Of a DNA stretch of 64,000 nucleotides, positions 1,146 to 58,866 are shown one piece after another (within the stretch, counting starts at the first letter, position 1; each line of letters opens with the position of its first letter). The notes beneath the pieces were generated by a model, which worked only from the letters and a program-made list of their open reading frames with translations, did no database searches and was not told the origin of the DNA. The DNA comes from Magnolia sinica (Eukaryota > Streptophyta > Magnoliopsida > Magnoliales > Magnoliaceae). The stretch is taken from assembly GCF_029962835.1 (NCBI RefSeq), contig NC_080588.1, positions 64,008,001 to 64,072,000 on the forward strand. The letters are read 5' to 3'. The position numbers and the translations under genes are program-made.

Positions 1146-2014
1146 AGCTCTATAATCCATATTATTATAATTCCAATCTTCATGTCACTCTATTAATCTT
1201 TTAGTTAAACAAGTCTGGTAATATTAAATAAATTGAAGTTTTATTTTATTGTTTCTTTATAATTACCATGAGAATGCTAAGATATTCATGGCCCATGTGA
1301 GAATGGATGGATGGTTATGATTGTCTAATTTTTAGATTGGGCCACTGTAAGATTTCCTAGTATGAACGGGAAAAAATAAGTGATGTTGATCCTACTATAT
1401 ATAATACTGTTATATTGGGCCACTGGCACAAGAACAACATCATCCAAACCGTTTGTGTAGTGTGTATCACATTGGATTAGACACGGCCATAAAATGGTTA
1501 TGATTACACGATCCTATCTGTCCAATCGCAGGATTTAAGTGATGGTGTATATTCGATAAAAGAATTCCTTGATTCAGATATATGGTTAGGATCATCTGAC
1601 CGGATTTTAGCCACTACATGTTGGTCACCAGTTGTTGAACAGTCTGGATCTGTTTGATGTCATGAGGGGGTGGCCCAATCACGCAAATCCTCTTTGAAGA
1701 TGAAGGGTCTATATTTTCCAGCATCTCCACCGTCTAGACAATCAGAACCATTGGTTTAGTGATAGAAAAACCATTAGTACAGTTGATTTGACAATCCTAG
1801 CAATCCGATTGACTAACAGATGCTTCTATTGCTCAACATTTACAAACCGTCCATTTTTAGGCTAATTATAGTCCCTTGGTATGGGACCTAACAGATCAAC
1901 GGTCATGATTGACCCAGTTGGGCCCATGATTTCCTGAAGCGGATTGGCTGGTGTACCACACAGCAGCTGTATAGCTGGTGCAGGTACGTGTCGTGCGACG
2001 AGCGCTGACGCTCC
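1146..2014. other. PR-1 copy 1 downstream region, no gene seen
   Basis: The first part is the 3' UTR and flank. The stretch around 1415-1480 (GGGCCAC, then CCGTTTGTGTAGTGTGTATCAC) is also found behind PR-1 copy 2 near 35944-36005, so the duplication unit extends at least 300 bases past the gene. I see no convincing coding region or element in the rest. Confidence 0.6.
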
Positions 2015-2300
2015 TCGAGCTCCGGGTTGTACGAACGGTTCAAAGGAGATCAAAGTTACATAGGCCCCACAATGATGTATTTATTATATCCACACTGTTC
2101 ATCCATTTTTTGAGATCATTTTAGATTAACTATACAAAAAATGAATCATATTCAAAGATCAACCCAACCACACCACAAATAGCAGTAGAGATAATGATTT
2201 TTACTGTTAAAAATTTCTTAGGGCCAAACATAAAGTTTGTTTTCCATCCAATATGTTCATAAGGTCACAAAAACCTAGATGAAGGGGTTTCAATTGGGAC
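2015..2300. mobile_element. Left half of a palindromic MITE (GGGCCCCAC family)
   Basis: The stretch starts GAGCTCCGGGTTGTACGAAC and runs through the usual GGCCCCACAATGATGTA core. It shows only the left half of the family consensus; the right half found near 3366-3566 has the matching inverted end and may be the same element split by later insertions. Confidence 0.6.
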
Positions 2301-2410
2301 TAATGTTATTATTTTGAAAAGAGATGACACGGTTAGATCTAGTTTAGAGGATTTGTTTTTTATTTTTAATATCAAATTTATAAACTAATTTTTAAATGTT
2401 CCTAATTTGT

Positions 2411-3010
2411 ACAATTTGACTGGTCAGGGAAAATGCTAAGTTGCTAAAAAAAAAAAAAAAATCATAAATAAAGTGTTTTAGGAAGAACCGAAGCTGTATG
2501 CATGCACTTTTTTGAATGCGCTAGACTTCTAAGAAGTTACCCACCATTTAAGAAATGGTGGTGACACTTCAACCTTATGCATGGCATCTGTAAGGCAATC
2601 AGGAACATCCAGTTCGGTGACCCAACATGCATGGAGCATCAACCAGTAAATATACGAAGATGATGACAGGAATATATTTTTACCTACGGAGTTTGGACTA
2701 TGAAAATCTAATTCTCCATTTGATAGCCATCAATTGGATGGTTAAAGGTCGTTTAATCCATGTGACTTTAGATATTTTCTCCATCCACAACTTTTCCCAC
2801 GCTTTAGATGGTTTGGATAGCTTTACATGAGTGCCACATGTGATTAAGACGAGTCAAAATGGTGGTGAACCAACAAAGGGCTCTCACGCATTCTAATTTT
2901 TGGTATAGTTGGATATTCCAAGCATCTCTTACGGGGAACTCACGTGATAATGGTCACCATAGCACGTGAAACACACGATAAAAGATGGGGAGGGAGGGAG
3001 CGTGCGTTAC
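2411..3010. repeat. Segmental duplication block A, first part
   Basis: About 600 bases from TTGACTGGTCAGGGAAAATG to AAGATGGGGAGGGAGGGAG recur at 14161-14766 in the same orientation with only scattered substitutions and small indels. No gene is visible. It is the upstream end of the collinear A/B duplication. Confidence 0.85.
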
Positions 3011-3147
3011 ACTCGAAACGGCTCGTTTGGATTATAGGTTATTTTACACAAATTAACTACTTATCCCACGGGTAGCTTATCTTGGTTCCACATATTTAAC
3101 CAACAAATATACTGAGTGTATAGTCCAAATGGAATAGCATCCTCTCT

Positions 3148-3365
3148 TAGTTAAAACTAGGCATCGGACCAAGTCGGATCGAATTGGGTCCAACCCGATC
3201 CGGTCCGAAATGCAAGTAGTCTGACCTGAATCCGATTCGATCCGGGACAGAGTTAGGGAGATCTGGCTCGATCGGACCCGATGCGCAGTTGACCTGACCC
3301 GACCCGAGTCCGACTCGGCCAGGGAAACCGAGTCAAATCGGGTTTGGCACGATTCGGATAAAAAA
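3148..3365. repeat. GC-rich GGATCGGGTC-type degenerate repeat
   Basis: Short degenerate units of GATCCGACCCGA/GGGTCGGATC dominate. The same low-complexity sequence occurs at 4735-4930 and in the arms of the element at 27739-28511, so it is probably part of a dispersed non-autonomous element. No clear terminal repeats were found here. Confidence 0.6.
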
Positions 3366-4085
3366 ATTTAACAATGAAAATCATTATCCTCGTTGTTATT
3401 TTTGGTGTGGTCTATTTGACCTTTAAATATGATTCAACTTTTTTTCAAATGATCTAAAATGATCACCAAGATTGAATAAACGGTATGGATATAATAAATA
3501 CATCATTGTGGGGCCCATGTAATTTTGATCTCATTTGAGCCGTTCATACAACTCAGAGCTTGAGGCGCAGACTCCATTGGCCTTTGCACAACACGTGGTG
3601 TAGACTTGCTGGGCACGAAAGCACAGCGGCTTGCTTAACAAGAAACCACTGCGACACGCTTCACAGTGCATTGCACTGTATTGACAGTAGCAAGTTCTGT
3701 GAATTTGATCATGGGGTATATGTTGTATCCAAACCATCCATGCATTTTACAAGCTCGTCCTAATGTTTGAGACGAAAAATGAGACAGATCTAAGTATCAA
3801 ATGGACCACGTGAATTGTTTAAGGTGAAAATCATTATCTCTCATGCTATTTGTAGTGTGGTCCAGATGATCTTTGGATATTATTCGTTTTTTGGATAATG
3901 CTCTAGAATGATCTCTAAAAATATATAAACGGTACAGATATAATAATACATCACTATGGGGCCCATATAACTTTGATCTCCTTTGAACCGTTCGTACAAA
4001 CCGGAGCTCAAGGAGTGTCAGAGACGTCATTTCGTCTTCCCAGGACTCGGATTTCCTGCGAAAGTCTTTCGCAGGTGCGCAATTA
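3366..4085. mobile_element. Two partial palindromic MITEs
   Basis: A right half (3366-3566) and a second, more complete but internally shortened copy (about 3710-4030) of the GGGGCCCAY family. Both end with TTTGATCTC and an inverted GAACCGTTC-type tail. The segment between them (3567-3709) has no recognisable content. Confidence 0.6.
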
Positions 4086-4089
4086 TTCC

Positions 4090-4585
4090 GGATGGGACCC
4101 ACTATGATGTTCGTGAGAAATCAAACCTGTCTATCCGTTTTTAGATCTCATTTTAGGACACTAGAGAAAAAAATAAGGTGGATCCAAAACTCAAATGGGC
4201 CACAAGAGATGAAAAAGTGGGGATTTATTTTTTACCGTTGAGATATTTATATGGCCATCAAAGTTTTGTATTAATCTAAGTTTTTAGTGTTTTCACTTCA
4301 TCCCAATAAAAATGACCTTATAAGCAGTTTGGATGGCATATAAACATCAAGTCAGATCCTATGAAGGTTTCAACGGTAGGAATTCCTTTTCCCACTATTT
4401 CATCTTGTATGGCCCAATCGAGTTTTGGATCCTCCTAATTTTTTGGCGTTTCTGTTTGATCAGATCTTTCACTTTGACGGAAGCTTTTAGACCTAGCAAA
4501 AATCTGACGCCACATATTCTAAAATGAGCTCAAAAAAAGGATGGACAGGTTAGATTTCTCGTAAACATCATGGTGGACCACACCT
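4090..4585. mobile_element. Palindromic MITE, near full length
   Basis: The left end GGGACCCACTATGATGTTCG is mirrored at the right end by AACATCATGGTGGACC; the AGAAATC and GATTTCT tracts are also inverted. About 495 bp, matching the size of the family. Confidence 0.7.
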
Positions 4586-4599
4586 TACATCCCAGCACA

Positions 4600-5278
4600 G
4601 GAACTTCCTGAGAAAGCCTTCCGGGTCGTCTCTCCGTCTTCGCACGACACGTACCTACAGCAGCTTATATAGCTGGTGTGTAATGAGTAAACTCTAATGG
4701 GCCCCACCACGAATACATGTGGTTTATCCACCCCGAATCGGGGTCGGGTCGGATCGGACCCATTCAGATCGGGTTTTGGGTCGGGTCGGTCCGGATTAGC
4801 CACGACCCAAACTCGATTCGTAAACCATTTGGATCTGGATGGTCCAACTCGACCCGCACCGATCCAAGCTGTCGGTTCGGGTAGGATCGGGTCGGGTCAG
4901 GTCAGATCCACCGGATCGGGTAAGATATGTCCAGCTATACTCTTAGTTCAACAAACAAGTGTCTATGAATGGTAGAGCCCTTTCCCCACTGTACACGTAG
5001 CAGGGTGAATTATCACTAGGGAATCTGGACCATCCGTTAGTTGACCCTACTATGTGACTTATCATAGAGATGGAAGAAGATACAAATGATGAACGACTGA
5101 CATTTAGCATGGGAAGGTAAAGAAAATTGATGTAGTTATGATTTTTGGAAAATGGACCATCCATAATGCGTTATGCACGATGAACCAATCTGATCAATGC
5201 ATCGCCTTATCACGTTTACTGTGGCGAGATGGCTCTACCGTATTTTGGTTTCAAGCGATGGAACGTATCATCTCTAGT
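4600..5278. other. Intergenic, GC-rich degenerate repeat at 4735-4935
   Basis: 4735-4935 is another block of GGGTCGGATCGGACC-like units. The remainder carries no gene, RNA or element that I can recognise. Confidence 0.5.
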
Positions 5279-5586
5279 TAGGGTTGTACATCGAGCCGAG
5301 TCGAGTCGATGTGGGCCAAGATTGGTTTGAGTCATCCATGCTCTACTCGAGTTCGGGCTAGAGCTTATCATTGGAGCTTGGCTTGTTTGTCAAATCTTTT
5401 GAGTCGAGCTAGTAGATCGAGTCAAAGTGAGCTTATCTCGAATCGAGTCGAGCCTGCTCTCAACCTGACCCAACTCAACACCTAACCCAACACCCAACCT
5501 ACACCCAACTCAACCCAGCAACCTGACCCAACTACTTAACTCAACTGACTCAACCCGCATCCAACCCAACTCCAAAATCAAATATT

Positions 5587-5642
<56 letters not shown>

Positions 5643-5805
5643 GAGCTCTGAGTTTTGAGTTTAGTTGAATCAAAATATCGAACTCAGCTCTTTTTCAAAG
5701 CAAGCTGAATTATATAAGGCTGGGCTTGCTCGAATAGTTGTTACAGCTGAGTCATGCCAAGCTAGATCGAGTGGGCCCAGCTAGCTTCGCTCATGTACCG
5801 CCTTA
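5279..5805. mobile_element. hAT-like non-autonomous element with (AT)n core
   Basis: The left end TAGGGTTGTACATCGAGC is mirrored by the right end, which reads TAAGGCGGTACATGAGCG in reverse complement. The body is full of TCGAGTCGAGC-like units and holds a 52-base (AT)n run at 5588-5640. I could not find a convincing 8-bp target duplication. A related 5' end lies at 25218. Confidence 0.6.
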
Positions 5806-6390
5806 CCTCGGCTTAAAAGCTGAAGGGATAAGAGGCGGCCGGAAGGCGTGAATGACGGCCACGGACTCACAGGAGTAAGACTGGGGGTTGACGTGACCAA
5901 GTTTTGTCAGGTTTTTCGTGAAGCCCACCTCTATGTCTGTTGTATATCCATACCGTCCATCCGTTTTTCCAGCTCATTTTACGAGAGAAAAAGAAAAATG
6001 AAGCAGATCCAAATCTGATATGGACCACACCATAAGAAGCAGTGATCATTGAACGCCTACCATTAAAACTTCCTAGCGTCCAACGTAATTTTATTTCCAT
6101 CCAACCCGTTGATGATGTCATAAAGATCTTGACCAAGTGAAAAACAATTATAATCTTGACCCAAAACTTGTTAATGGTCTATCACCACCGTTTCCTGTGA
6201 TGTGGTCCAAATGAGACATGTATCTGATTCATTTTTATGTCTAGGACCTTAAATTATCTAGAAAAACGGATGGACGGCGTGGATATACAACAAATACATC
6301 TCTAGGTGGGCCCTATGGAAGAGACTTCACGGAACTCGGTCTGGTACCGAACTGACTGAATCCGCGCCTCGCAAGACTGACGTGGGTCGT
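5806..6390. repeat. Segmental duplication block A, second part, containing a MITE
   Basis: From GGCTTAAAAGCTGA to GCGCCTCGCAAGACTGACG this block matches 15020-15590 in the same orientation. It contains a GGGCCCAC-family MITE at about 5915-6325 whose two ends (GAAGCCCACCTCTATGT and its mirror) are both present in each copy, so that MITE was there before the duplication. Confidence 0.8.
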
Positions 6391-7390
6391 TGCCTTGTCG
6401 AAGAGGAAGGCTATTTGCAGTCGCGGCTTCGTACAACCAACCCACGCACCCTGCCAACGTGGCACACATGTAAGATATCTGGGATTGTAATCCAAGCAGA
6501 CCCCTTCTGTGGATGACCCATACATAAAAAAAAAAAAATCTCAGATATTGAAAGATCCTACCCACCGAATTTTTTTCTTTCACCAGTAGAATGTAGGCCG
6601 TTATTGTATTCCTCTTAACCGTCTATCTGTTGTCTAGAAATACAAAGGTTACGATTGACTCATCGAGGAGAGGAAATTACTGGCGAATAGACCATCATCA
6701 TTGGACTACAATGGGCTAACGGTCTGGATTAAAGTAAATGTGATCCACTTGTCAGAACAAAAAACCCGTGTATCTTGCGCATAGATGCGGATCGCGTTTC
6801 ACATGATCCCTTAACGTATGGGGCCCGGAATCGTCTGCAACACCTGTTAGACGCAGCGCGTATAACAAACGTGGCCCGTTGTATTTTACGTGGGAGATCC
6901 ATTCCGTCCATCACGTTCGCCACACAATGGTAGGCTACGGTAGAAAAAAATTTCCAGATCCGCAACTCAGATGGTCCACACATGGGGAGAGGACGCCAAC
7001 CATAGGTATATCCGGAGCTACCGTCAAGTATATAATTCCATCCAATCTGTTTATCAGATGGGCCTCACAACGATTAACGGAGACTCTAAAAATTGGTATC
7101 ATCTAAAATGTAGGCGGATCACACCGTGTGAACTTGGAGATTTTAGTGGTGATTTTACATTTTTCCCGTGGCTTGGTCCACCTGAGTTTTGGATGATTTT
7201 TTTGGGTTGTACAGTGAATGCAGAAAAGGTCACATTCTAGACGGATTTGATGTTACACTCACAGCACGGTGGGCCCACATAACTCTCGCGTTTTACGGCG
7301 GTGGACCGCAATTGTTGAAGAGGATACAGGTCCAAGATATCCGTAGACAATCTACAGCCATGAATTGCGGGATGGGCATGTTAACTCGTG

Positions 7391-8471
7391 GGACGCGGAT
7401 TAGATAATGACAGGTTGAGTAGCGAGACTGCTGCTAAAGTGGAAACGGATTGGCTACTCCCCCTGACACCATCCCCGTGGCTGGTGGTCGGTGCTCCGTG
7501 GGCCCCACCATGATGTATCTATTTCATCCATTCAGTTCATACATTTTTATAGATTATTTTAGTGCTTGATACTAAAAATTATATGGATATAAATCTCAGG
7601 TGGACCACACCACATGAAAACAATAGAGATTGGATATCCACCATTAAAATATTCCTAAGGCCTAATGTACTGTTTATTTGACATCCAATCTGTTGATCAG
7701 GTCATACAGGCCCGGATGAAGGGAAAAAACAAAAATCAGCTCGATCCAAAACTTTTATGGCCCCCAAAATGTTTTTAATGGTCGAAGCTTATTTAACACT
7801 GTTTCCTGCAATGTGGTCCCCTTGAGATTGGAATATAACTAGTTTTTGGTCTCATACTTTAAAATGATCTGTAAAAATAGATGTACGGAATGGATGAAAC
7901 ACATACATCATACTGGGGTCCACATAGCACCGACCACCAGCCATTGGCTGGTGTCAGGGGGAGTAGCCAATCCGTTTCCTGCTAAAGGACGTTACCACGT
8001 TTTGTGGGACCCAAAATGATGAATGTGTTGTATCCACGCGATCCATCCATTTGGAGAGATACTTATATGACATGGGATAAGAATGAGTCGGATCTAAATC
8101 TGGAGTAGACCTACGCCCCACCGTTGAAACCTTCACCAAGGTCTACTATGATATTTATTTGTGATCCAACGTGTTCATAAGTTAAGACAGACATGAGAGA
8201 AGGGAAAGCACAAATTTCAGATTGATCGAAAACTTTTTTGGCCCTTAGAAATTTTTAATGGTGGGTGTCACTCTCTCCACTATTTTCTGTGGTGGGGTCC
8301 AAAATAGCTTAGGATCTGACTCATTCTTTGGGTAATACCCTAAATTGATATCTCCAAATGGATGAACGGTGTGGATACAACACATACATCATGTTGGGTC
8401 CTAGAGAACTTGCTGACGTCACTTCAGTAGCGAGTCTCGCTGCTCAAACTGTCAGCGCCTAATCTGCGTCC
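7391..8471. mobile_element. MULE-like MITE, outer element of a nested pair
   Basis: Ends GGACGCGGATTAG and, inverted, CTAATCTGCGTCC, followed by mirrored GAGTAGCGAGACT. Flanking 9-mers TAACTCGTG (7382-7390) and TGATTCGTG (8472-8480) match at 7 of 9, consistent with a Mutator-type 9-bp target duplication. Without the inner insertion the element is about 533 bp. The paralogous copy at 22395-23003 lacks the inner insertion. Confidence 0.75.
7441..7979. mobile_element. MULE-like MITE, inner element of a nested pair
   Basis: A 539-bp near-palindrome with ends GGAAACGGATTGGCTACTCC and its mirror, and arms that continue through GGCTGGTGGTCGGTGCT and GGGCCCCACCATGATG. The flanks TGCTAAAGT (7432-7440) and TGCTAAAGG (7980-7988) match at 8 of 9. 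It sits inside the element 7391-8471. Long inverted repeats plus a 9-bp duplication are the known signature of Mutator-like elements; no transposase is encoded. Confidence 0.85.
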
Positions 8472-8544
8472 TGATTCGTGAGGACTATCCCCGTCCTGAC
8501 TCGTGAGAACTGGTGCGCAGCTGGGCATTATGCAACGGGAGGTA

Positions 8545-8850
8545 TGCTCACCTTTGTGCCTGCGCACGTGTGCACATTTTCACACATGTCACAAGCCTAA
8601 AATCCGAACGGTCCATGTGATGTTGCACTCCATGAAATTTCCATGGACCAATTTTCACCCTGATCCAAAACTTTAGTGGGCCATAGAAAAGAGAAATGCA
8701 AATTAAAAATATTACTTTATTTTCCACGGTCCACCAAAGTTTTAAATCAGGGTAAATGTTGGACCATGGGTGTTTCATGCGGTTCTACGTCACGTGGATC
8801 GTTCAGAATTTTGGACTCACATCACATGTGATGAGTAATCAAACATGTGT
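8545..8850. mobile_element. MITE of the ATGCTCACC family
   Basis: Begins GGTATGCTCACC and carries the ACGTGTGCAC / AATCCGAACGGTCCATGTGA core; the second half mirrors the first (TCACGTGGATCGTTCAGAATTT). The same family occurs at 23615-23945 and, best preserved, at 32255-32616. Confidence 0.65.
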
Positions 8851-8924
8851 CTACGTAATCATCTGCATGTCATCTTTGGAGCTGATTAAGTGCGGCGGAC
8901 CTTACCCAAGACGGTGCAGGGGTG

Positions 8925-9440
8925 CAGTCCTTACCGTAGGGCCCACCTTGATGTATGTATTCTTTATCCACGCCGTCCATCAAATTTGCTAAATCATTTA
9001 AGTGAATGAGCTCAAAAATGAAGTAGAACGAACGTTGTATAAGAAACAGTGATTGATTAACTATTTATTGGCCACAAAAGTTTTGGACCAGGCTGATATT
9101 TGTTTTATCCTTTCATCCAGGTTTATGTGGCCTTGTCAATGGGTTGGATGGCAAATAAACATCGCAGAAACCTTAAGTTTGTCTGAGGGCGGCTACGAAG
9201 CTTTTAATGATGAGGCGTTCACTCGCTATTTTTTTCATCTAGTATGGTCCACCTAAGATTTGGATCTTCTTCGTTTCTAAGGCCATACCCTACAATGATA
9301 TGAAAAAACAAATGAATAGAATAGACATGAATTACATATATCAAGGTAGGCCATACGGTACGGGAGGCAAACAAATGAATAACATGGATATGTATTACAT
9401 GTATTGACGTAGGCCACACGGTAAGGGACGCACACTAGTC
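8925..9440. mobile_element. Palindromic MITE (GGGCCCACC family)
   Basis: The left end GTAGGGCCCACCTTGATGTA has a mirrored right end TATCAAGGTAGGCCATACGG at about 9340-9360, and a second, partly duplicated right end follows at 9395-9430. The paralogous copy in block B is at about 24080-24590. Confidence 0.65.
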
Positions 9441-15019: not shown

Positions 15020-15590
15020 GTCTCGGGCTTAAAAGCTGAATGGATAAGAGGCGGCTGGAAGGCGTGAGCAACGGCCACGGGTCGCGGTTTCAATCAGATC
15101 GAGACCTGACCGAGTTTCGTCAGATTTTTCGTGAAGCCCACCTCGATGTGTTGTATATCCCTACCGTCCATCCGTTTTTCCAGCTCATTTTACGAGAAAG
15201 AAAGAAAAATGAAGCGGATCCAATTCTGATATGAACCACACCGTAGGATGCAGTGATCATTGAGCGCCTACCAATAAAATTTCCTAGGGTCTAACGTAAT
15301 TTTATTTCCATCCAGTCAAAAAGATCTTGAATAAGTGAAAAACAAATATCATCTTGACCCAAAACTTGTTAATGGTCTATCACCACTGTTTCCTGTGATG
15401 TGGACCAAATGAGAAATGCATCTGATTCATTTTTAGGTATAGGACCTTAAATTATCTGGAAAAACGGATAGACGGCGTGGATATACAACAAATACATCTC
15501 TAGGTGGGCCTTATGGAAGAGACTTCACGGAACTTGGTCTGGTACAGAACTGACTGAATCCGCGCCTCGCAAGACTGACGTGGATCGTTG
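15020..15590. repeat. Segmental duplication block B, second part
   Basis: Direct copy of 5806-6390, including its internal MITE (about 15110-15525). Similarity to block A stops at about 15590 and resumes at 21357, so about 5.8 kb was inserted or rearranged in between. Confidence 0.8.
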
Positions 15591-15789
15591 ATGAAGACCA
15601 TGACTTCCCGAAGGGAAATTTCCAACTGTACGACCCATATACGGCCCACCAACCTTTTTTAGCCCACTTGCTTTTTACCTCCCAAGAATAAGCCCCAGCT
15701 TTACGGCCCCATTTCTCAGGTCGAAAATGCCTCTGCTTCCCTTCCTGAGGCGGATCGCCTGGTGCTCGAAAACGAGCGCTGACTCTCCT

Positions 15790-16860
15790 CGAATTTCGAG
15801 TTGTACGAACGGTTCAAAAGCTATCAAAGTTACATGGGCCCCACCGTCATGTATTTATTATATCCACAACGTTCATCCATATTTCGAAATCATTTCGGAG
15901 CATTATCAAACAAAAAAAATCATACCCAAAGATCAGCTGGACCACACCACAAAGAGCAGCGGGGAAATTGATTTTCACAGTTAAAAATTTTGTAAGGCCC
16001 ACCATAACATTTATTTTCCATCCAATCTAAGGTCACAAAGACGTGGATGAAGAGGAAAAACAAATTTCATAATGATCCAAAACTTCTGTAACGCCTCAGG
16101 GTCTGTTTGGGCAGTGGGATTAGAAGGGATTAGGCGGGATGGGATTCATCTGGTTCCGTGCCAATTCCACTCCATGTTTGAGAAGAATGGAGAAGCTTGG
16201 AATTACATTAAATGGAATTGCATTGGTCTCGTGCCAATTTCACTTAATATTTGGAAAGTTGTGTGGGTCCCACCATGATGTGTGGGCTATATCCACACCG
16301 TCCACCCATTTATCTAGATTATTTTAGAGCATGGACCAAAAAATCAGGTAAATCTAAAGCTCAAGTGGACCCCACCATAGAAAGCAATGGGAATTGAATA
16401 TTTACCGTTGAAAACTTCTTTGGGGCCACATAAGTTTTGGTTCTACCTCATTTTTAGGCTTATGCCATAAAATGAGATTACAAAACAAATGAACAATTTA
16501 GATATAACACATGTATGTTATTCTAAGTAATTTCAAATGATGGTGGGCATATCCATTCAATGCACCACCGTATTATCAACAAAGCATGACATTAATTTTA
16601 TCCCATGGCAATAGGGGACAATCCCTGCCATGGGTAATAATTATGTCTTCTGAATCCCATCCCACCTGATCCCTTCTAATCCCACTGCCCAAACAGACCC
16701 TAAAAGTATTTCAATGGTAGACATTCAATTCCCTACTACCTTTTACAGTGTGGTCCAGTTGATAGTTAGATCCATTTTATTGTTTGTCTCAAGCCTTAAT
16801 ATGAGCTCACCAAATAGATGGACGGTTTGGATATAACACAGACCTCATGATGGGACCCAA
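15790..16860. mobile_element. Palindromic MITE split by a Tourist-like MITE
   Basis: The left half (15790-16098) begins GAATTTCGAGTTGTACGAAC with GGGCCCCACCGTCATG; the right half (16701-16860) resumes exactly in register at AAAAGTATTTCAATGGTAGAC and ends at ATGATGGGACCCA. The intervening 602 bp is a separate element. The right end runs straight into the foldback region. Confidence 0.8.
16099..16700. mobile_element. Tourist-like (PIF/Harbinger) composite MITE, copy 1
   Basis: Terminal inverted repeats of 32 bp are identical, starting GGGTCTGTTTGGGCAGTGGG. The flanking trinucleotides are TCA and TAA, close to the known TWA duplication. The middle (about 16255-16520) is a shortened copy of the other MITE family, recognisable by GGGTCCCACCATGATGTG and ATATCCACACCGTCCACCC. 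The same composite occurs at 32805-33395, so it multiplied after the body was acquired. Confidence 0.88.
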
Positions 16861-16959
16861 AAAAATAATAAAACAAAAGGAAAAAAAAAAACACTAACTG
16901 CGGCGGCACTACCGCCGCGGCAGTCGAGCAGATTTTTATTTTTTATTTTTCCTACCGGA

Positions 16960-19900
16960 GAACTATTTCTCCCTTACATTTTTCTCTAATACATAATTAT
17001 GTAAATATGTATATATAAGTATATAAAAATATTTTTCTCTCTCTTAATTCATTTCTTTGCCTATTTATTTAACAAGCATATCTTCTAAACTAGAATGAGT
17101 TACTTAATATACCATATATGATTTTGGGTAGGAGAAACTAATTTAGCCAACCAACATAGTAGTTTTTCAAGATTCCATCGGGTTGATGGTCAAAAATACA
17201 TTTCATTCACCTTGCGGTCAATTTTATTCATTTTATTCATTTCGCGGTCAATTCGCTTCCCTTCATGGTCATTTCCATGCATTTCACAGTCATTTCCGGT
17301 GATTCCGTTTAGATTTACTGTCATTTCCATGCATTTCACGGTTAATTTTCTTCATTTCACTATCATCCGTTTAGATTCATGGTCAATTTTCTTCATTTCA
17401 CGGTCATTTTCATGCATTTCACGGTCAATTCACTTTATTTCACGGTCATTTCCATGCATTTCACAGTCATTCCCAGCGATTCCATGTTGATTCACTGTCA
17501 ATTCCCTTCACTTCACGGTCATTTCCATGCATTTCGCAGTCAATTCGCTTCACTTCACCATCATTTCCATGCATCTCACGGTCATTCCTGGCGATTCCGT
17601 GTTGATTCACGGCCAATTTCCTTCACTTCACGGTCATTTCCATGCATTTCATGGTCATTTCGCTTCACTTCACCGTCATTTCGCTTCACTTCACCATCAT
17701 TTCCATGCATTTCATGGTCATTCTCGGCAATTCTGTGTTGATTCACGGTCAATTCCATGCATTTCACGGTCAATACGCTTCACTTCACGGTCATTTACAT
17801 GCATTTCACGGTCAATTTGCTTCACTTCATGGTCATTTCCATACATTTCATGATCATTTCCGACGATTCCGTGTTGATTCACGGTCAATTCCATGCATTT
17901 CACGGTCAATTCCCTTCACTTCACGGTCATTTCCATGCATGTCATGGTCATTCTCGGCGATTCTGTGTTGATTCAAGGTCAATTCCACGCGCTTCACAGT
18001 CAATTTCCTTCACTTCACGGTCATTTCCATGCATTTCACGATCAATTTGCTTCACTTCACGGTCATTTCCATGCATTTCATGGTCATTCCTGCGCGATTT
18101 CGTGTTGATTCATAGTCAATTCCATGCATTTCACGGTCAATTCCCTTCACTTCACGGTCATTTCCATGCATTTCGAGGTCAATTCGCTCCACTTCACCGT
18201 CATTTACATGCATCGCTTCACTTCACGGTCATTTCCATTCATTTCACGGTCATTTCCGATGATTCCGTTTAAATTCATGATCATTTCCATGTTAGTTCAC
18301 GGTCAATTCACTTCACTTCATGGTCATTTCCACGCATTTCACGGACAATTCACTTCACTTCAGGGTCATTTCCATTCATTTCCCAGTCATTTCCGGTGAT
18401 ATGACTCGTACTCCATTTTGGTGGGCCCCACGTTTAGATTCACGAGTCATGACCGCGAAATGCATGGAAATGACCGTGAAGTGAAGCGAATTGACAGTGA
18501 AATGTGTGGAATTAACTGTGAATCAACATAGAATCGCCAGGAATGACCGTGAAATGCATAGAAATGACGGTGAAGTGAAGCGAATTGACCGCGAAAAGCA
18601 TGGAAATGACCATGAAGTGAAGGAAATTGACCGTGAAATGCGTGGAATTGACCATGAATCAACACAGAATCGCCGGGAATGATCGTGAAATGCATGGAAA
18701 TGATGGTGAAGTGAAGCAAATTGACCGCGAAATGCATAGAAATGACCATGAAGTGAAGGGAATTGACCGTGAAATGCATGGAATTGACCTTGAATCAACA
18801 CGGAATCGCCGAGAATGACTGTGAAATGCATGGAAATAACGGTGAAGTGAAGTGAATTGACCGCGAAATGCATGGAAATGACCGTGAAGTGAAGGGAATT
18901 GACCGTGAAATGCGTGGAAATGACTGTGTATCAACACGGAATTGCCGTATATGATCATGAAATGCATGGAAATGTCCGTGAAGTGAAGAGAATTGACCGG
19001 GAAATGAGTGGAAGTGACCGTGAAGTGAAGTGAATTGACCGTGAAGTGCATGGAAATGACTGTGAATCAACACGGAATTGTCAGATATGATCGTGAAATG
19101 CATGGAAATGACGGTGAAGTGAAGCGAATTGACCGCGAAATGCATGGAAATGACCGTGAAGTGAAGGGAATTGGCTGTGAAATGCTTGGAATTGACCGTG
19201 AATCAATACGGAATCGGCAGGAATGACTGTGAAATGCATGGAAATGGCGGTGAAGTGAAGCAAATTGACCGTGAAATGCATGGAAATGACCATGAAGTGA
19301 AGGAAATTGACTGTGAATCAACACGGAATCGCTGGGAATGACCGTGAGATGCATGGAAATGACGGTGAAGTGAAGCGAATTGACCGCGAAATGCATGAAA
19401 ATGACCGTGAAGTGAAGGAAATTGACCATGAAATGCGTGGAAATGACCGTGAATCAACACGGAATTGCCGGATATGATCGTGAAATGCATGGAAATGTCC
19501 ATGAAGTGAAGAGAATTGACAGTGAAATGAGTGGAAGTGACAGTGAAGTGAAGTGAATTGACCGTGAAGTGCATGGAAATGACCGTGAATCAACACGGAA
19601 TTGCCGAATATGATTGTGAAATGCATGGAGATGATGATGAAGTGAAGGGAATTGATCGCGAAATGCATTGAAATGACCGTTAAGTGAAGGGAATTGATCG
19701 TGAAATGCGTGGAATTGACTATGAATCAACACAGAATCGGCGGGAATGACCGCGAAATGCATGGGAATGACGGTGAAGTGAAGTGAATTGACCGAGAAAT
19801 GCATGAAAATGACCGTAAAGTGAAGGAAATTGACCGTGAAATGCGTGGAATTGACTGTGAATCAACACGAAATCGCCGGGAATGACTGTAAAATGCATGG

Positions 19901-20310
19901 AAATGACGGTGAAGTGAAGCGAGTTGACCGCGAAATACATGAAAATGACCATGAAGTGAGGGAAATTGACCATGAAATGCATGGAATTGATCGTGAGGAA
20001 AATGAAATGAATGAAATTGACCGCGAATTGATTGAAATTTACCGCGAAGTGAATGAAATGGATTTTCGACCATCAACCTGATGGAATCTTGGAAAATAAA
20101 GAGGTTGGTTGCTAAAGTAGCTTCTCCTACCCCAAAAATCATATAGGGTACATTAAGTAACTAATTTTGGTTTAGAAGATATTCTTGTTAAATGAGTAAA
20201 GAAATAAATGGAAAAAAGAGAGAGAAAATTTTTATATACTTATATATACATATTTATATAAATATGTATTAGATAAAAATGTAGGTAGAATAAAGTTATC
20301 TATGCTAAAA
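16960..20310. repeat. Giant foldback structure with minisatellite arms
   Basis: A 3.3-kb inverted repeat. The outer arms (about 16960-17193 and 20068-20310) are inverted copies of one AT-rich sequence and contain CAAGATTCCATC(G/A)GGTTGATGG. The inner arms are arrays of a 45-bp unit, TTCACGGTCATTTCCATGCA / TTCACGGTCAATTCGCTTCAC: plus-oriented from 17194 to about 18400, minus-oriented from about 18451 to 20067. Every third unit carries GATTCCGTGTTGATTCACGG, giving a 136-bp higher-order period (GTGTTG at 17735, 17871, 17965 and 18102). The hinge is a perfect 9-bp stem, ATGACTCGT (18401-18409) and ACGAGTCAT (18442-18450), around a 32-base loop. Long reading frames exist in several frames on both strands only because the unit has no stop codons. 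It resembles Foldback-type DNA elements; outer limits are uncertain, as GCGGCACTACCGC motifs at about 16900 and 20455 may belong to it. Confidence 0.93.
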
Positions 20311-20329
20311 GAAGAAAAAAAAAGTGCAC

Positions 20330-20875
20330 AGGTGGATGTAGGGCCCACCAAAATCATGATTATTGAGTGTGGGGCCCCTTCAAAATTATGTGGGGCCCAT
20401 GATGGGACCCACCCAATTTTTTAACAAAAAAGCGGGTGGAACTACTACACCCGGACGGCACTACCGCACAGATGTCCAGATGTCGGCGGCATTACTGCTG
20501 GATCGGTGGTACTGCTGCCAATATTTATCAGTCAATGGGTTCGGCTACTGCTGCGGTTATAATCCGTAGTAATAGGTATCCCAGCCTTCATCCATCAACC
20601 GATTCGTTGGAGGAAAAAAGCAGAGGCATTTTCTACCTTTGGGATGGCGTCCGTACAACCGGGGGTTATGCTTGGAAGGTATAATGAGGTAGGCTTCGTC
20701 TCGGAAATGGGTCATAAATGGGTCGTGATGTATCTTTACATCCAAGCCGTTTATCCCTTTTTTCAGGTTATTTTAAGGCATCAAAACAAAAATTAGTCAG
20801 GTCCAACGTTCAAGTGGACCACACCAAATAATAAGCTTGGTTGCATTAAAATGCACAAAGCATTAAATGTCAATT
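20330..20875. other. Spacer with GGGCCCACC motifs and GCGGTACTGCC motifs
   Basis: 20338-20415 has three GGGCCCAC motifs. 20450-20540 has GGCACTACCGC, GGCGGCATTACTGC and GGTGGTACTGCTGCC, which echo the GCGGCGGCACTACCGCCG next to the left arm of the foldback. A partial MITE left end lies at about 20715-20870. No gene seen. Confidence 0.5.
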
Positions 20876-21350
20876 GGATGGCTAGTGGTCGGTGCTACGT
20901 GGGCTCCGCCGTGATGTATGTATTTCATCCATTATGTTCATCCATTTTTAAAAACCATTTTAGGTATTATTCCAAAAATAAGAGGTATATAAACTTCAGG
21001 TGGACCACACCACATGAAAACAATAGTGATTGGATACCCATCGTTAAAATCCTCCTAAGGCCCATAGTACTGTTTATTTGATGTCTAATCTGTTTATTAG
21101 GTTATACAAGCCCAGATGAAGGGGAAAATAAAAGCCATCTCGATCCAAAACTTTTATGGCCCAAAACATTTTTAATGGTTGGCGCTCATTCAGCACTGTT
21201 TCATGTAATGTAGTCCATATCAGATCGGGATATTTCTCATCGGGATATTTCTCATTTTTGGTCTTATGCCGTAAAAAGATCTTTAAGAATGCCCACGGAG
21301 TACCGACTACCAGCCATTGCCCGGTGTCAAGGGGGGTATCCAATCCGCTC
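20876..21350. mobile_element. Palindromic MITE (GGTCGGTGCT subfamily)
   Basis: Closely related to 7441-7979: begins GGCTAGTGGTCGGTGCTACG and ends with the mirrored GAGTACCGACTACCAGCC and GTATCCAATCCGCTCCC. The left extreme is shortened. Confidence 0.7.
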
Positions 21351-32767: not shown

Positions 32768-33873
32768 GGAAGCGGATCGGGTCGTGAGTAACTCACGACA
32801 CTTAAGGCCTGTATGGGCGGTAGGATTAGAAGGGAATAGGTGGGATGGGATTCATCTGGTTCCGTGCCAAATCCACCCCATGTTTGGGAAGAAATGGAAA
32901 AGCTTGGAATTACATTAAATGGAATTGCATTGGGTCCTGATCCAATTTCACTCAATGTTACCAAGTTGTGTATGATGTGTGGGCTATATCCACACCGTCC
33001 ACCCATTTATCAAGATTATTTTAGAGCATGGGCCAAAAAATTAGTTAAATCTAAAGCTCAAGTGGACCCCACCATAGAAAGCAAGGGGGATTGAATATTT
33101 ATTGTTGAAAACTTCTTTGAGGCTACATAAGTTTTGGATCTACCTCAATTTTAGGCCCATGCCATAAAATGAGGTTACAAAACAAATGAATGGTTTAGAT
33201 ATAACACGTGTGCTATTCTCGGTAATTTCAAATGATGGTGGGTATATCCATCCAATGTACCACGGTATTATCAACAAAGCATGGCATTAATCTCATCCCA
33301 TGGCAATAGGGAACAATCCCTGCCATGGGTAATAATTATGTTTTTTTAATCCCATCCCACCTAATCCCTTCAAATCCCACCGCCCAAACAGGCCCTTCGC
33401 GTACTGGTAAACTCTGTGAGGTCTACCATGATTCATGTATTTTATCTGCTCTGTTCATCCATTTTACCATATAAATTTAGGGCTTGAGCCAAAATATGAG
33501 GCATATCCACTATTCAAATGGACCACACCATAGGAAACAATTGACTTAAATGTCTACCGTTGGAAAATTCTTGGGGGCCATAGAAGTTTTGGATTAAGCT
33601 TATATTTGTGTCTTCCTTTCCCTTCATCCATGTCTATATGATCTTATGAATAGGTTGGATGACAAATAAACATTGCTGTGAGGCCTAGAAAGGTTTCAAT
33701 GTATCACCACTATTTTCAGTGGAATGATCCACTTGATCTTTGGATATACTTAAATTTTGGGTTCAACCCATTAAATTAGATGGAAAAACAGACGGACGGT
33801 GTGGATAGACCACATACATTTAAGGTGGGCCTAGCTGAGTCATACCGAGTAACTCAATACGCAATCCGATTTC
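32768..33873. mobile_element. MULE-like MITE split by a Tourist-like MITE
   Basis: Ends GGAAGCGGATCGGG and mirrored CAATCCGATTTC, arms with GTGAGTAACTCAC. Flanks ACTATACAT (32759-32767) and ACTGTACAT (33874-33882) match at 8 of 9. Without the 591-bp insert it is about 512 bp. Same subfamily as 23042-23605, which is uninterrupted. Confidence 0.82.
32805..33395. mobile_element. Tourist-like (PIF/Harbinger) composite MITE, copy 2
   Basis: Ends GGCCTGTATGGGCGGTAGGA and mirrored GGGCCTGTTTGGGCGGTGGG. Flanking trinucleotides TTA (32802-32804) and TTC (33396-33398); the uninterrupted relative at 23042-23605 reads CTTTAGC at this point, which fits insertion at a TTA-like site. The interior again contains the shortened GGGCTATATCCACACCGTCC body, as in 16099-16700. 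Confidence 0.87.
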
Positions 33874-34877: not shown

Positions 34878-34941
34878 TGACGTGGCCTTTATCTTTCCAT
34901 GGCCACCCATACCATGTCATGCATGTTTGCAGCTATAAATA
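34878..34941 (+). promoter_or_regulatory. Proximal promoter of PR-1 copy 2
   Basis: TATAAATA at 34934-34941, in the same GCAGC-TATAAATA-ACCCTCCCACAATG context as copy 1. TGACGTGG at 34878-34885 combines a TGACG (as-1-like) core with an ACGTGG G-box-like core and lies about 50 bases before the TATA box. In copy 1 the TGACG lies some 130 bases from its TATA box and has no ACGTGG, so the proximal promoters differ. Confidence 0.6.
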
Positions 34942-34997
34942 ACCCTCCCACAATGCTAATTTCTGTCAAGCAATCCATCCTAACAATAGCTAAAAAG

Positions 34998-35486
34998 ATG
35001 GCATTCTCCAGCCTTGCACTCGCTCTGATGTGTGTCGTGAGTCTAGCCCTGGCTCATCTTACCCAAGCCCAAAACTCCCCCCAAGACTTCCTTGCTGCTC
35101 ATAATGCCGCACGTGCGCAGGTTGGCGTCGGCGCCATGACATGGGACCCTACCGTGGAGGCCTTTGCCAGGAACTACGCTAATCAGCGTATCGGTGATTG
35201 CCGGCTTGTGCACTCAGGTGGGCCATATGGTGAGAACATCTTCTGGGGCTCTGGCCGTGAATTCACAGCTGCTGATGCAGTGAATTCATGGGTCGGCGAG
35301 AGACGAGACTATAACTACAACGCAAACACGTGTGCAGCCGGAAAGCAGTGTGGACACTACACTCAGGTAGTTTGGCGTGACTCGGTCCGACTCGGTTGCG
35401 CACGTGTGAAGTGCAACAGTGGTGCAATTTTCATCACATGCAACTACAGCCCTCCTGGCAACATCGTTGGGCGAAGGCCGTACTAG
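34998..35486 (+). CDS. PR1: Pathogenesis-related protein 1 (PR-1), copy 2
   Basis: Secreted CAP-domain defence protein of 162 residues. The ATG at 34998 is chosen because an upstream in-frame ATG (34899) precedes the TATA box at 34934, another (34953) lies too close to it, and the signal peptide [10 protein letters not shown] begins here. Signal peptide about 1-24, mature start [11 protein letters not shown] features: [15 protein letters not shown], His and Glu of [14 protein letters not shown]1 motif GHYTQVVW (canonical, unlike copy 1), CAP2 motif [10 protein letters not shown]. All six disulfide cysteines are present. The C-terminal [11 protein letters not shown] fits the CAPE peptide, but the residue before it is Ser (CNYS) where copy 1 has the usual Asp (CNYD). 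It lacks one residue relative to copy 1 near residue 66. It carries more Arg near the C terminus, so it is probably more basic. No intron. An AATAAA lies at 35611-35616. Confidence 0.96.
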
Positions 35487-49462: not shown

Positions 49463-49533
49463 TAAATGAGCTTATTTTTCTTGCTAAAGATGCATCTGCA
49501 CTGTATACATACGTTAAGACGGTTTGATTTGAC

Positions 49534-49542
49534 TATTTATAT
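49534..49542 (+). promoter_or_regulatory. Possible TATA box of the carboxypeptidase gene
   Basis: TATTTATAT about 118-126 bases upstream of the chosen ATG, which would leave a 5' UTR of about 90 bases. Motif only. Confidence 0.4.
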
Positions 49543-49659
49543 GCCACGTATTCAATTTCTAAGTGCATGCGTATCATCCATTCCATTCTGCCAGAGTACC
49601 GAATTATTTTCCTGGTAGAAAAAAGCTCGCCTCTTTCACACGCTCCCGATTCTAACGAG

Positions 49660-50058
49660 ATGGAGAAAAAAACACCCTCCTTTTTGCTTTTACCCCTCCT
49701 CTTCTTCTCCTCATCTCTAATCGCACTCGCACAAGCAGCCCACTTCCCTTACTCTTTCAAATCCACCCCTCGTTTCCTCGCAAATTACGCAAATGCAAAT
49801 CGCAAAACCCCCTACTCGAAAGTTCTTCAATACGAGACCCACTACTTCACACAACAGCTCGATCACTTCAGCTTCTCGAATCTCCCCACCTTCGAACAGA
49901 GATTCCTCATCAACAGCGTCCATTGGAGTGGACCCGATCGGACGGCCCCGATCTTCTTTTACTGCGGGAATGAAGGAGATATCGAGTGGTTTGCTGAGAA
50001 CACGGGTTTCGTTTGGGAGATCGCGCCTCGATTCGGGGCCATGGTTATATTCGCCGAA
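49660..50058 (+). CDS. Lysosomal Pro-X carboxypeptidase-like (S28) protein, exon 1
   Basis: First exon, 133 codons, of a serine carboxypeptidase of family S28, the plant relatives of prolyl carboxypeptidase, which cut after Pro near the C terminus of peptides and are vacuolar or secreted. The ATG at 49660 opens a signal peptide (MEKKTPSFLLLPLLFF through IALAQA). Then come the family's N-terminal landmarks: YETHYFTQQLDHFSF, RFLINSVHWSGP, PIFFYCGNEGDIEWFAENTG and PRFGAMVIFAE. The exon ends at a good donor, GAA|GTAAGC, in phase 0; in relatives the next residues are HRYYGES, so the position fits a known intron site. The catalytic Ser motif (GGSYGGM) and the rest of the roughly 500-residue protein are not in the window. 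The in-frame ATG at 49567 is unlikely because it lies near the expected transcription start. Confidence 0.9.
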
Positions 50059-50848
50059 GTAAGCACTTCGAAAATTACTGTATTTTCTCCCTTTCTTTTG
50101 GGGATTTTTTTGGGATTTTGTGTGTATACGAAATTACAAAAATATCCTTTTTTTGGTAAAGTTTACTACTTCTAACGAAGTCGTAAATTACCAAAACGAT
50201 TTTCACCGCATAATTCATTAAAAAAATACTTATTTTACAAAAGACCAAAATCCATGAAGTAATTCTTGAGGGATAAAAAGACCAAAATACCCTTTTTGTA
50301 TGTGTGTGTGTGTGTTTTTTTTTTGAGTCGGGCCCATGTTGTGCTGACTCCTTGCTTGTGGACCTCATCTGGGCTTGGCTCTTTTTATCGTGGATTGGCT
50401 GGGCTTGTACGTCGGTCCTTAGGTCATGCTTCAGCCCAGCTAACGTATCCAGACCACACATCACTCGTGGATGGTCTAGATTTTGATCCAACATGTGATG
50501 CATCGTGCACAGTGTGACAGTCGATTGGAATGTTGGGCCATTGTGATGTGTGGTCTGGATGCATCGCTAGCCTGGTTGAAGAGGTACTGGAACGATTGTA
50601 TAACCACTGACCAATAACTTACTTTTCAAAAGTCAGTATAATTTATAGGCAAGAGTAACCAGAGAGTTCATTTGGACCAGTTTGGATACCACCCAATAAG
50701 TGACTTTTTAACATGTATCAAGTTAATGAGTTATTTTTTTTAAAAAAAACTTAAGTTAGTTTGATAAGCACCGTTATAAAAGTAACTAATGTGATAAAAG
50801 TTAATTATCCAATTATTTTTTGTCTTTTCAACTTTTAACTTTTCTACT

Positions 50849-50884: not shown

Positions 50885-51985
50885 TAATGGATGGTCCATA
50901 TCAAAGGAGGCCCACATGATGGGCGGACCATATCAAAGGTGGGGCCCACATGATCGAGGGTCCACATTAAAGGTGGGCCCCACATATGGATGACCCACAT
51001 CAAAGTGAGCCCACATAATGGATTGTCTGGATCAAAGGTAGGTTCCTGATGATAAGTGGCCCACATCCAAAGCGGGCCCCATATGATAGACGACCCACAT
51101 TGAAGGTTGGGCCCACACGATGGACGGTCCATATCAAAGGTGGGCTCCACATGAGGAGTGGTGGATATGGAAGGTGGCCCCACGTGATGGACAATAGCAT
51201 TAAAGGTGGGCCCCACATAATGGACAGTCCACATCAAAGGTCGACCCCTAATGATGAATGGCCCAGATCCAAGGTGGGCCCTGCATGATCGACAACTCGC
51301 GTTGAAGGTGGGGCCCACACGATGGATGGTCCACACCAAAGGTGGGCTCCATAGACATTAAGTGGGCCCACATGATGGACAATTTATTTTGATGGCGGGC
51401 CCTAAATGATGGATGACCTGCATAAAGGTGGGCCCCATATAATGCACAGGCCACATTAAAGGTGCCGATTATGAATGGCCCCCATCCAAGGTGGGCCCCA
51501 CACAATGGACAGTGGTCCACATCAAAGGTGGGCTCCACATGATGGGCGTTGGATATTAAAGGTGTGCCCGACATGATAGGTGACCCATATCAAGGTGGGC
51601 CCCGCATGATAGATGACCCATATCAAGGTGGGCCCCACATGAGGACAGTCCACATGGAAGGTCAACACCTAATGATGAATGACCCACATCCAAGGTAGTC
51701 CCAATTGATGGATGGTCCACTTCGAAGTTAGGCCATACATGGTGGGCGGGCCAAATTAAAGGCGGGCCCGCATGATGAATGGCCCACATCCAAGGTGTGT
51801 CCCACATGATGTATGACCCACATCCAAGGTGGGCCTAGCAAGGTGGATGGTCCACGTTGAAGGGAGGCCCCACACCTTGGATAGTTCACATTGAAGACAG
51901 GAGCAAGGTGGGCCCAATATAATGAACACTCCACATCAAAGGTTGGGCCCACGTGATGGACGATGTATATTAAGGGTGGACCGAA
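50885..51985. repeat. Minisatellite, about 34-bp unit
   Basis: Roughly 32 degenerate copies of a unit such as CATCAAAGGTGGGCCCCACA / TGATGGACGGTCCA. Copies vary in length by a few bases, and every unit keeps a GGGCCC-like core followed by ATGATGGA. Frames without stops on the minus strand give a GPTFDMDHPSCGP-like repeat, which is a by-product of the unit. The core resembles the end of the local MITE family (GTGGGGCCCACCATGATG). Confidence 0.9.
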
Positions 51986-55655: not shown

Positions 55656-58600
55656 CAATTACTGTAGATAAGTATTGATTACCATTGTAATCCAGTACTG
55701 TAGAATACAACTGTTATGTTGGTAGCATTGTAGAAAATAGTGTCATTGTATGACACTATAGCAGTTTGTTTTTTGCATGTCATTGTAGTGTCAGTAGAGT
55801 ACTGTAGCGGAACTAAAATGTTGTAAAATCCAGATCATTATCCGCTGGACACTATAGCAGATCCGAAATGTTGTAAAATCTTGTTTCATCCATCTATAAA
55901 AGGGGACATCCTCTCTTTATCCTGATAGAGTAAGTTCTGGCCGAGAGTTTTGTGGCTCCTTGTTTGAGTAATGTAGCTATTGTAGTCCATTATGTGGACA
56001 CAATGTTTGAATGAAGATTTGAATCCCTTATGTGTCTTGGTTGTATAATCGCTCCTGTTCGTCTGGAGTTTTTCTTGATAATTTTTTTGTGCATAGTTGG
56101 TATTATAGCCATGTGCTCTTTGTGAGTTTGTTTCTCTGCCAATAACTAATTAGGCTTCTTATTGGTAGATGATATTGATTTTATGCCCGTATTGTTATTA
56201 TGGCTTATAGTGTCTACCTTCTACTATTATTATGCCTAGTAAGTCTTATTTCGGCACCCTAATTAGCATGCTCTACAGTTGCCCTTCGTGGGATCCTTTG
56301 TAACAGAAAACTGAGTTTGACAGAGTAAGCTAAAAGTATAGTTTACAGTTAATTTAGATGATCAATTTACTTGACTGTATGGTAGGACTATTGGCACGAG
56401 GCCATTCATAAACTGTCTGGTTACAATTTTTTTTTTTTCCGTAACTCTAATCATTTAATCCACCTTACTTTGGAGTGTTATAAGGTTGTCCTGCTGGATT
56501 AGTTTTCCAACAAATGGTTGTCCTACTCCCATGAGCTAAATCACAATACAGATTTTAAAATCGGTATCTCATCAACATGTTTTCCCTTTAGTCATTAGCA
56601 TTTGATTTTACTCGTTCAAAAATTCATGGCTTCATCCCTTCTAGGTATCCTTGAACCATATCAACCTTCTATTTCTTCCATTCATTCTACCTCTTCTTCT
56701 AAATTAGAATATTTATATGAAATAGAATACCAGTATTCAAAGTCCAAAATTCCCATCACCGATTATCTAGTTGTAAATCTGTACCATGTTTATGTAAACC
56801 CTAAAGGTTCTCTGGCCAAGAAAACCAATAAAAACTCATTTCTTCCAAGCCCTCTTGTCCTCTAAAAGAATATGTGATGTCATCCAAATTTGATCAACAT
56901 CTGATCCATGCTGGACCCAAGGAATCCTTTGTTTCTTTAGATTTGCCTGCACATCTCCATTCCCAGTGGCTTGATGGCTTTACTCATCTTCATCTTAGAG
57001 CGATCAAAATCACTCTCACTTTCCATGGATGTCATGACATGGAAATAACAAGTAATCTAACTCTTCTAGACATTCAGTTCCTCAAGTACAATCAAGTTGT
57101 CATTGGTACTCTTCAGATTACGCTAAATGTAGACATCATCTTCTTCACCCTCCTTCCAAATTATAGCATTTCTTTCCGTGATCCCCACTTCTTTGATGCA
57201 CTTAAGGCTCAAGTCCAAATCCTTGGAGCCGACATGCAAGAGGGAGCAACCGCAACTACTCTTCATTATCAGATGGCTTTCCGACTTCAAATTCATGCTA
57301 TCAACTTGCCAATCAATGGCCTCAGTCAATCCCAAGCTGCCTTGCTCCTCAAGGTAGAAGAAACATGAGTTCCTCATTGCACATTTGTGCCCAAACAACT
57401 CAATAATGAGCAACTCAAGTCATTCTTCCTTCAAAATGGATCACTGCCTATGAGCAACATTAGTCTACATCCCGGGTACTGCATAATACTGAACCCACTT
57501 TCGTCCGAAGACAAGATGACAATGTTAAAGCCTGATTTTCATCCCAAACAATTGAAGAACATGTCTTCCCTACGACCTTGCTAGAATAAAATTTGGATGA
57601 ACCACTTGGTCCAGTCCCAACAAGTGTTTATTATACAAATCTTCTCAGGCAACAAGGCAAACATATCTCATGGGATGTGTGTGATTGTGATGAATGCTAG
57701 GAAGATCGGTTTGATGATTCCCACAACTCTTCAAAGCAGAAGCCCTCCTTTCAGCAACAACTTAAACAATGATATGAAGCAGGAGACCCTGAAGTTGGCC
57801 TCCCAGGGGAACCTTCTGGAAATTTGATTTTTATGTGTTTTATCCTAGAAATAAGTCTTCTCCAACATCTCCATCCCGTTGCCATCCACCTACACCAATT
57901 AAACCTCCACCACCTAATCCTGCCTTAGCTCCATACTACTGAAAAACCATCTCTCATCTCACTACCAAACCACCTTGCTCTCCACCTACTCCCATGATTC
58001 CTATTCCCCAAATACCTAAAGTTTGCATGATGGAATCCTCAACACCATCTGTCTCATTCCCTTCACCTGAAGACTTTGAATACCTGCAAGCATGAGAAGC
58101 ACATACTTGGAAAATCAAAACCCTAGTTGACAAACAAATCTCCATAATTGAAGCTGCTTTACATTGGCAAGCAAATAATAGTGTCAAGCAGAATCTAGCT
58201 CTTCAGCAGCTCTTAGCAAATCAGAAGCATTTGCTGACTAACCCAAGAAGCACATAACCGTACAATTCTTATTGACATGCTTCAGGCTAAACTTGATCAG
58301 CTCCATAATGAGCTTATGCAGATCGTCACCACTGTTAGAGATTGGAAGATTGCTCGCACAAAAGGAAGTTGAGAAGAAGTCACTTAAAAACTAGCTCAAG
58401 TCGGTGATGCCCCCTCAGATCACCCACCTCCAAATCATCTCCGAGATTTTCCTCCTTTTACCTCTACTTCATTACCATATGTCCCACACTATCAACATCA
58501 ACCTCTCAAAGAATCACCTACAACCTCTAACCCTTTAAAAGACCCGATCCCTGCAACCTTCCAAACCTACCTTCAACAACAAAAAGCCTCATTATCCTCT

Positions 58601-58866
58601 ACCTCCAGATCTAACCGCTCTAAAAGACATCCTAACTCACCCAAACCGTCTATACCAAAATCTCCTCCCCTTGCATTTCTCATAGAACAACCCAATGCCC
58701 CTTCCAATCCTAACCTATTCGTCATTCCCACAACCGACCAAGACCTTAACCCAATCCCTTCCTTTCTCCAAACCCTTACACTTCAACCTTTAAAAACCCT
58801 CTCAATCTCCGAAAATTCCTCCTTTGAAGATGTCTCCGCCACTTTCACTTCATCCCTGTTCTCATT

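Follow-up and report, generated by a model that had tools for sequence, protein, structure and literature searches.

A long palindrome in the genome of Magnolia sinica is very probably a non-autonomous foldback transposon of the Mutator-like (MULE) type and, to judge from its sequence, one old and damaged member of a large family of this species. The copy lies in a stretch of 64,000 nucleotides (the window, C16:64008001-64072000), and the genome searched for its relatives comprised 1,838,573,281 bases in 127 contigs. The sequence-only reading of this DNA had proposed a foldback-type DNA element; this is supported, and the common termini of the family, together with the 9-bp target-site duplications of the relatives, refine it to a Mutator-like one.

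The copy in the window

The palindrome of the window copy is larger and built otherwise than had been described. Its limits had been placed at 16960 and 20310, which is wrong: the element extends beyond these positions at both sides, from 15613 to about 20726, and is interrupted by an unrelated insertion (Table 1). It opens at 15613 with GGGAAATTTCC, which differs at one position from the end motif of the family, GAGAAATTTCC, and its right tip is lost. The insertion, whose ends are mutual inverted copies (51 bp, 96%), is foreign to the original element. The last 102 bases of the insertion have a 92% copy at 33295-33396 of the window.

Table 1. Parts of the foldback element, in window coordinates
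Feature	Position	Strand	Remark
Left outer terminal module, piece 1, left end GGGAAATTTCCAACTGTACGACCCAT	15613..16098	+	at most 92.8% identity to the module of relatives
Nested insertion of about 602 bp, inverted ends (GGGTCTGTTTGGGCAG...)	16099..16700	.	interrupts the outer module
Left outer terminal module, piece 2	16701..16932	+	81-89% identity to relatives
Left T-rich lead and AT-rich arm	16933..17208	+	83% to the inverted right arm
Left 21-bp array, 115/136-bp higher-order periods, less regular	17209..18400	+	
Turning point, 9-bp stem, 32-base loop containing GGTGGGCCCCAC	18401..18450	.	
Right 21-bp array, chiefly 136-bp higher-order unit (5 x 21 + 31)	18451..20050	-	
Right AT-rich arm, of an arm lineage other than that of the left arm	20051..20323	-	
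Right outer terminal module remnant, outermost 17 bases unrecognizable	20593..20726	-	

The inversion of the arrays, which read plus at about 17200-18400 and minus at about 18451-20050, was confirmed, and the 9-bp stem with its 32-base loop at the turning point is seen in the sequence as it had been described, ATGACTCGT at 18401-18409 pairing with ACGAGTCAT at 18442-18450. The best inverted match in the window copy scores 1950 bits, whereas none of 40 first-order Markov sequences exceeds 40.1 bits; the inverted structure is far beyond chance. The two AT-rich arms match as inverted copies, with identity in 232 of 281 alignment columns (E 1e-74), and are thus related outside the tandem unit. These arms had been recognized in the sequence-only reading, but had been called unique, which is incorrect: a search of the genome with the arm gave 4773 candidate places, and among the best 40, which were scored, the left arm is 89-94% identical to 39 other places.

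Ends, target-site duplications, and arms of the family

The same architecture is found at many loci on different chromosomes. A search of the genome with the whole element gave at least 207 matches (the best 29 of 7671 candidates scored), and a search with the end gave 1452 candidates, the best 40 of which were scored; the counts of all family searches are lower bounds and do not give an exact copy number. The loci that we read are biased towards the left arm of the window copy, because they were chosen as best hits. Upstream of the arms, many of 43 arm records stay similar to about 700-800 bp, where similarity is lost, and most of 23 aligned ends have the common start GAGAAATTT, which is absent in L012 and offset by one or more bases in some others. 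We take this end to be similar to that of maize Mu. From the outside inward, a full end has the GAGAAATTTCC motif, then an outer module whose length is very roughly 300-800 bp, a T-rich lead, and an AT-rich arm (about 230 bp), followed by the 21-bp array reading inward, and the opposite end is its inverted counterpart. The family therefore has the long terminal inverted repeats with a common terminal motif that mark MULEs (the GAGAAATTT end and the outer module), as well as the long inverted repeats of tandem units, with little or no spacer, that mark foldback elements. Parts of the outer module also recur elsewhere in the window, at 65-84% identity and in both orientations (scattered in 1997-9159, and at 15137-16511 and 20888-21191), and these many recurrences place the module in a wider repeat set.

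The other mark of MULEs, a target-site duplication of 9 bp (8-10 allowed), was found in the relatives. Among eight end pairs, three have a perfect 9-bp duplication, three have an imperfect one, and two have none. The perfect duplications (9/9) are CGTAAATTC in E17, AAAAGAATC in L007, where the outer of two candidate left ends is the one that matches, and CAGGTTAAA in the element at C7:23048352-23056023. The imperfect ones are those of the L058/L032 pair (8/9, with a 2-bp offset), a pair on C11 (7/9), and the L059/L016 pair (6/8); no duplication was found in E02 or in a pair on C1, and the latter lacks an array in the middle and perhaps does not represent a single element. Where the flanks are AT-rich, a partial duplication taken by itself is weak evidence, and the case for a MULE is carried by the three perfect duplications. 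Between the ends of L058 and L032 (C10:17757000-17764140), the arrays switch direction several times, as if elements were nested or rearranged.

The window copy, without its right tip, has no testable target-site duplication, and it could be thought that the structure is a local inverted duplication of a satellite, or an artefact of assembly, instead of a mobile element. However, many loci, on different chromosomes, have this architecture, with common ends and some perfect duplications, and the nanopore reads of the assembly average 22 kb in the available part of the source, which is longer than the element (PMC10999834). For the family, the satellite or artefact reading is already refuted by the target-site duplications, and as an account of the element it is extremely improbable.

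No member of the family bearing a transposase was found among the candidate MULE domains of the genome (the best 150 of 1104 scored, and 30 inspected with 1.5 kb on each side), and the assignment to the MULE class therefore draws solely on the ends and the duplications. When the 150 scored domains were compared with 80 places of the family, none was within 54 kb. In three of the 30 inspected MULE-domain loci (L066, L078, and L088), a stretch of 75-99 bp is 76-80% identical to the outer module, but this stretch is also common elsewhere in the window.

The arms of the family split into two lineages, and the window copy, E02, and L007 each have one arm of either lineage. Five elements have both arms in full, and in four of them each is nearer to arms elsewhere than to its partner; gene conversion homogenizing both arms is unsupported in these four, whereas it is possible in E22, whose arms are 96.8% alike.

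The likeness of the arms also bears on another explanation, in which double-stranded RNA from the window copy would silence the copy's own family in the manner of the Mu killer locus of maize: its transcript would fold back and be processed into small RNAs directed at the arms and arrays. The central 1451 nt, taken as RNA, are predicted to form a nearly continuous duplex (-953.9 kcal/mol, a value without a shuffle control at that length); to the extent of a fold prediction, this bears out the RNA duplex of more than 1 kb that had been expected from the sequence. Mu killer is an inverted repeat derived from MuDR and is proposed to act through a hairpin RNA, although the same paper, in its available part, describes short antisense transcripts that are unable to form a long hairpin (PMC3440606). 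However, folding of this kind is expected of any long inverted repeat, no match was found in Rfam, and the outer arms of the four elements mentioned above are 78-83% alike, less than each is to arms elsewhere. Modelled in this way, a role of the window copy in silencing seems unlikely, and we prefer to see it as a non-autonomous MULE.

Arrays of two unrelated-looking units

The basic unit of the arrays is 21 bp (e.g., TTCACGGTCATTTCCATGCAT) and has halves of 10 and 11 bp. The autocorrelation at lag 21 is 0.608 in the left array of the window copy and 0.613 in the right array, whereas at lag 45 it is 0.185 and 0.166, respectively, under the mean of 0.28; the unit of 45 bp given in the sequence-only reading is therefore to be replaced. 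The 136-bp period of the same reading is strong in the right array (0.813), but in the left array it only equals a period of 115 bp (both 0.532). This higher-order period is 5 x 21 + 31, that is, each cycle is closed by one 31-bp unit, and 152 of 210 segments, from 16 elements, are exactly 136 bp long. The nearest neighbor of 161 higher-order units was found in another element for 110, in the same arm for 34, and in the other arm for 17. Since the nearest neighbors are mostly in other elements, the arrays look older than the element copies. Protein coding by the arrays was rejected, the frames being repetitive with stops at the 31-bp units (judged by eye).

To compare the arrays behind the arms, we took the 48 arm records in which the interior extends for 400 bp or more, and left out shorter or less complete arms. 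These are 47 distinct arms, as L006 and L008 overlap; furthermore, L014 and L018 are not independent, because both are in copies of one larger duplicated stretch. Directly inside 46 of the 47 distinct arms there is a 21-bp array, which belongs to the unit class of the window copy in 33 and to a second class, GCGGGGCAAACATGAAATTGA, in 13; L019 has no 21-bp array within 500 bp of the arm. The strand of the array relative to the arm is constant, none of the 46 being on the opposite strand. In the three elements read at this point, the second class starts in the same 21-bp register just after two first-class units. The possibility that it is the first class reversed was rejected, as in all three the class changes within one 21-bp unit and the strand is opposite to that of the match. 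The best match between the two classes, 14 of 21 positions (p 0.0064), is weak because it is the best of nine comparisons. The two units look unrelated, and yet both occur behind the same arm, in the same place and on the same strand.

The arrays are most likely amplified passengers and not a working part of the element, because the sequence of the unit is replaceable by another. In the mechanism that we propose, a MURA-type transposase from elsewhere would have cut the element at its GAGAAATTT ends and so moved it. The array would already have been within the terminal repeat of an ancestor, and its strand would be fixed because it was inherited as a component of the inverted ends; its length may have changed by unequal exchange or slippage, yielding the 136-bp higher-order unit.

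The spacing of the units raises the question of whether the arrays could instead be a binding platform, which we regard, from the sequences compared, as quite improbable. Among 2160 unit spacings in 33 arrays, in which the element of the overlapping L006 and L008 is counted twice, 1648 are 21 and 317 are 31; of the 472 that are not multiples of 21, 355 fall within about half a base of multiples of 10.5. A Fourier peak at 10.5 is present in both window arrays, and secondary sites within the tandem repeats of the terminal repeats have been proposed for Galileo in the available part of its description (PMC3573991). However, the unit is a dimer of 10+11, so that half-unit exchange yields equal spacings without selection, and most of the 31 spacings may be copies of one event. 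Furthermore, the sequence of the unit is wholly different between the two classes, and a resemblance of the unit to the element end was rejected, as 12 comparisons showed no likeness (p 0.11-0.85).

A different view of the same arrays would make the dispersed, many-copy elements hairpin loci of the Mu-killer kind, in which the cutting of a kilobase duplex would yield a small set of repeated species, the period of 21 bases being a size class of plant small RNAs. The unit would then be replaceable, with period, place, and strand kept, because only these matter to the process. We consider this view very improbable, and retain amplified passengers of a MULE as the reading of the arrays.

Related elements and other repeats of the window

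The inverted repeats of the Drosophila FB element contain nested tandem units of 10, 20, and 31 bp. In size, these are much like the 10, 21, and 31 bp of the Magnolia family. The general kind of element is already known, since foldback MULEs with tandem units occur in nematodes, mosquitoes, and plants; the following comparisons refer to the available parts of the respective papers. Tm1 of root-knot nematodes (Mutator/Foldback) shares with the Magnolia family composite terminal inverted repeats built largely of short tandem units in variable number, 9-bp target-site duplications, and members that are mostly non-autonomous (PMC3169594). However, the units of Tm1 are 13-15 bp and its elements about 0.5-0.9 kb, compared with 21-bp units and 3-8 kb in Magnolia, and Tm1 has a transposase-encoding member (PMC3169594), whereas none was found for the Magnolia family among the 30 inspected MULE-domain loci. 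Muta1 of Aedes aegypti, a type 2 foldback MULE, likewise has duplications of 8-9 bp and tandem repeats in a subterminal position within its terminal inverted repeat, but its terminal repeats are 145 bp with nine copies of a 12-bp unit, and it is autonomous and active (PMC5225508). MuTAnT of Medicago and FARE of Arabidopsis are, similarly, plant MULEs that fold back over most of their length; MuTAnT differs in its size of 0.2-1.6 kb and in inserting into TA microsatellites (PMC4486113). The foldback element Tetris of Drosophila virilis shares the tandem arrays within the terminal repeats and an outermost domain free of arrays; its target-site duplications are 8-10 bp, its unit is about 220 bp, and this unit has also escaped from the element into free-standing satellite arrays (PMC4079207).

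The Magnolia family differs from these known systems in its kilobase length, its regular higher-order period, and the presence of either of two units at a single place and strand, and a literature search, mostly of papers accessible without subscription, found no description of it. It is a plant case, on a kilobase scale and in many copies, of satellite-like arrays with a higher-order period being carried and spread by a transposon. As units that look unrelated share place and strand, the family allows us to ask whether period or sequence is kept, and also whether long natural hairpins of DNA transposons feed small RNAs.

Elsewhere in the window, virus-like fragments at 56832-60859 are probably the relic of an endogenous pararetrovirus; they include a movement-protein domain at 56832-57368 (PF01107, E 7.4e-10) and a zinc-knuckle piece below the cut-off at 60392-60859 (PF00098, E 0.0049). 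Two similar PR-1-like frames with a CAP domain (PF00188), about 34 kb apart, are found at 474-1145 and 34881-35486 (E 1.7e-22 and 3.7e-21, respectively). Two adjoining minisatellites of 33-34 bp, rich in GGTGGGCCCCACATG, occupy 50887-51835, next to part of a Peptidase_S28 frame (49528-50175).
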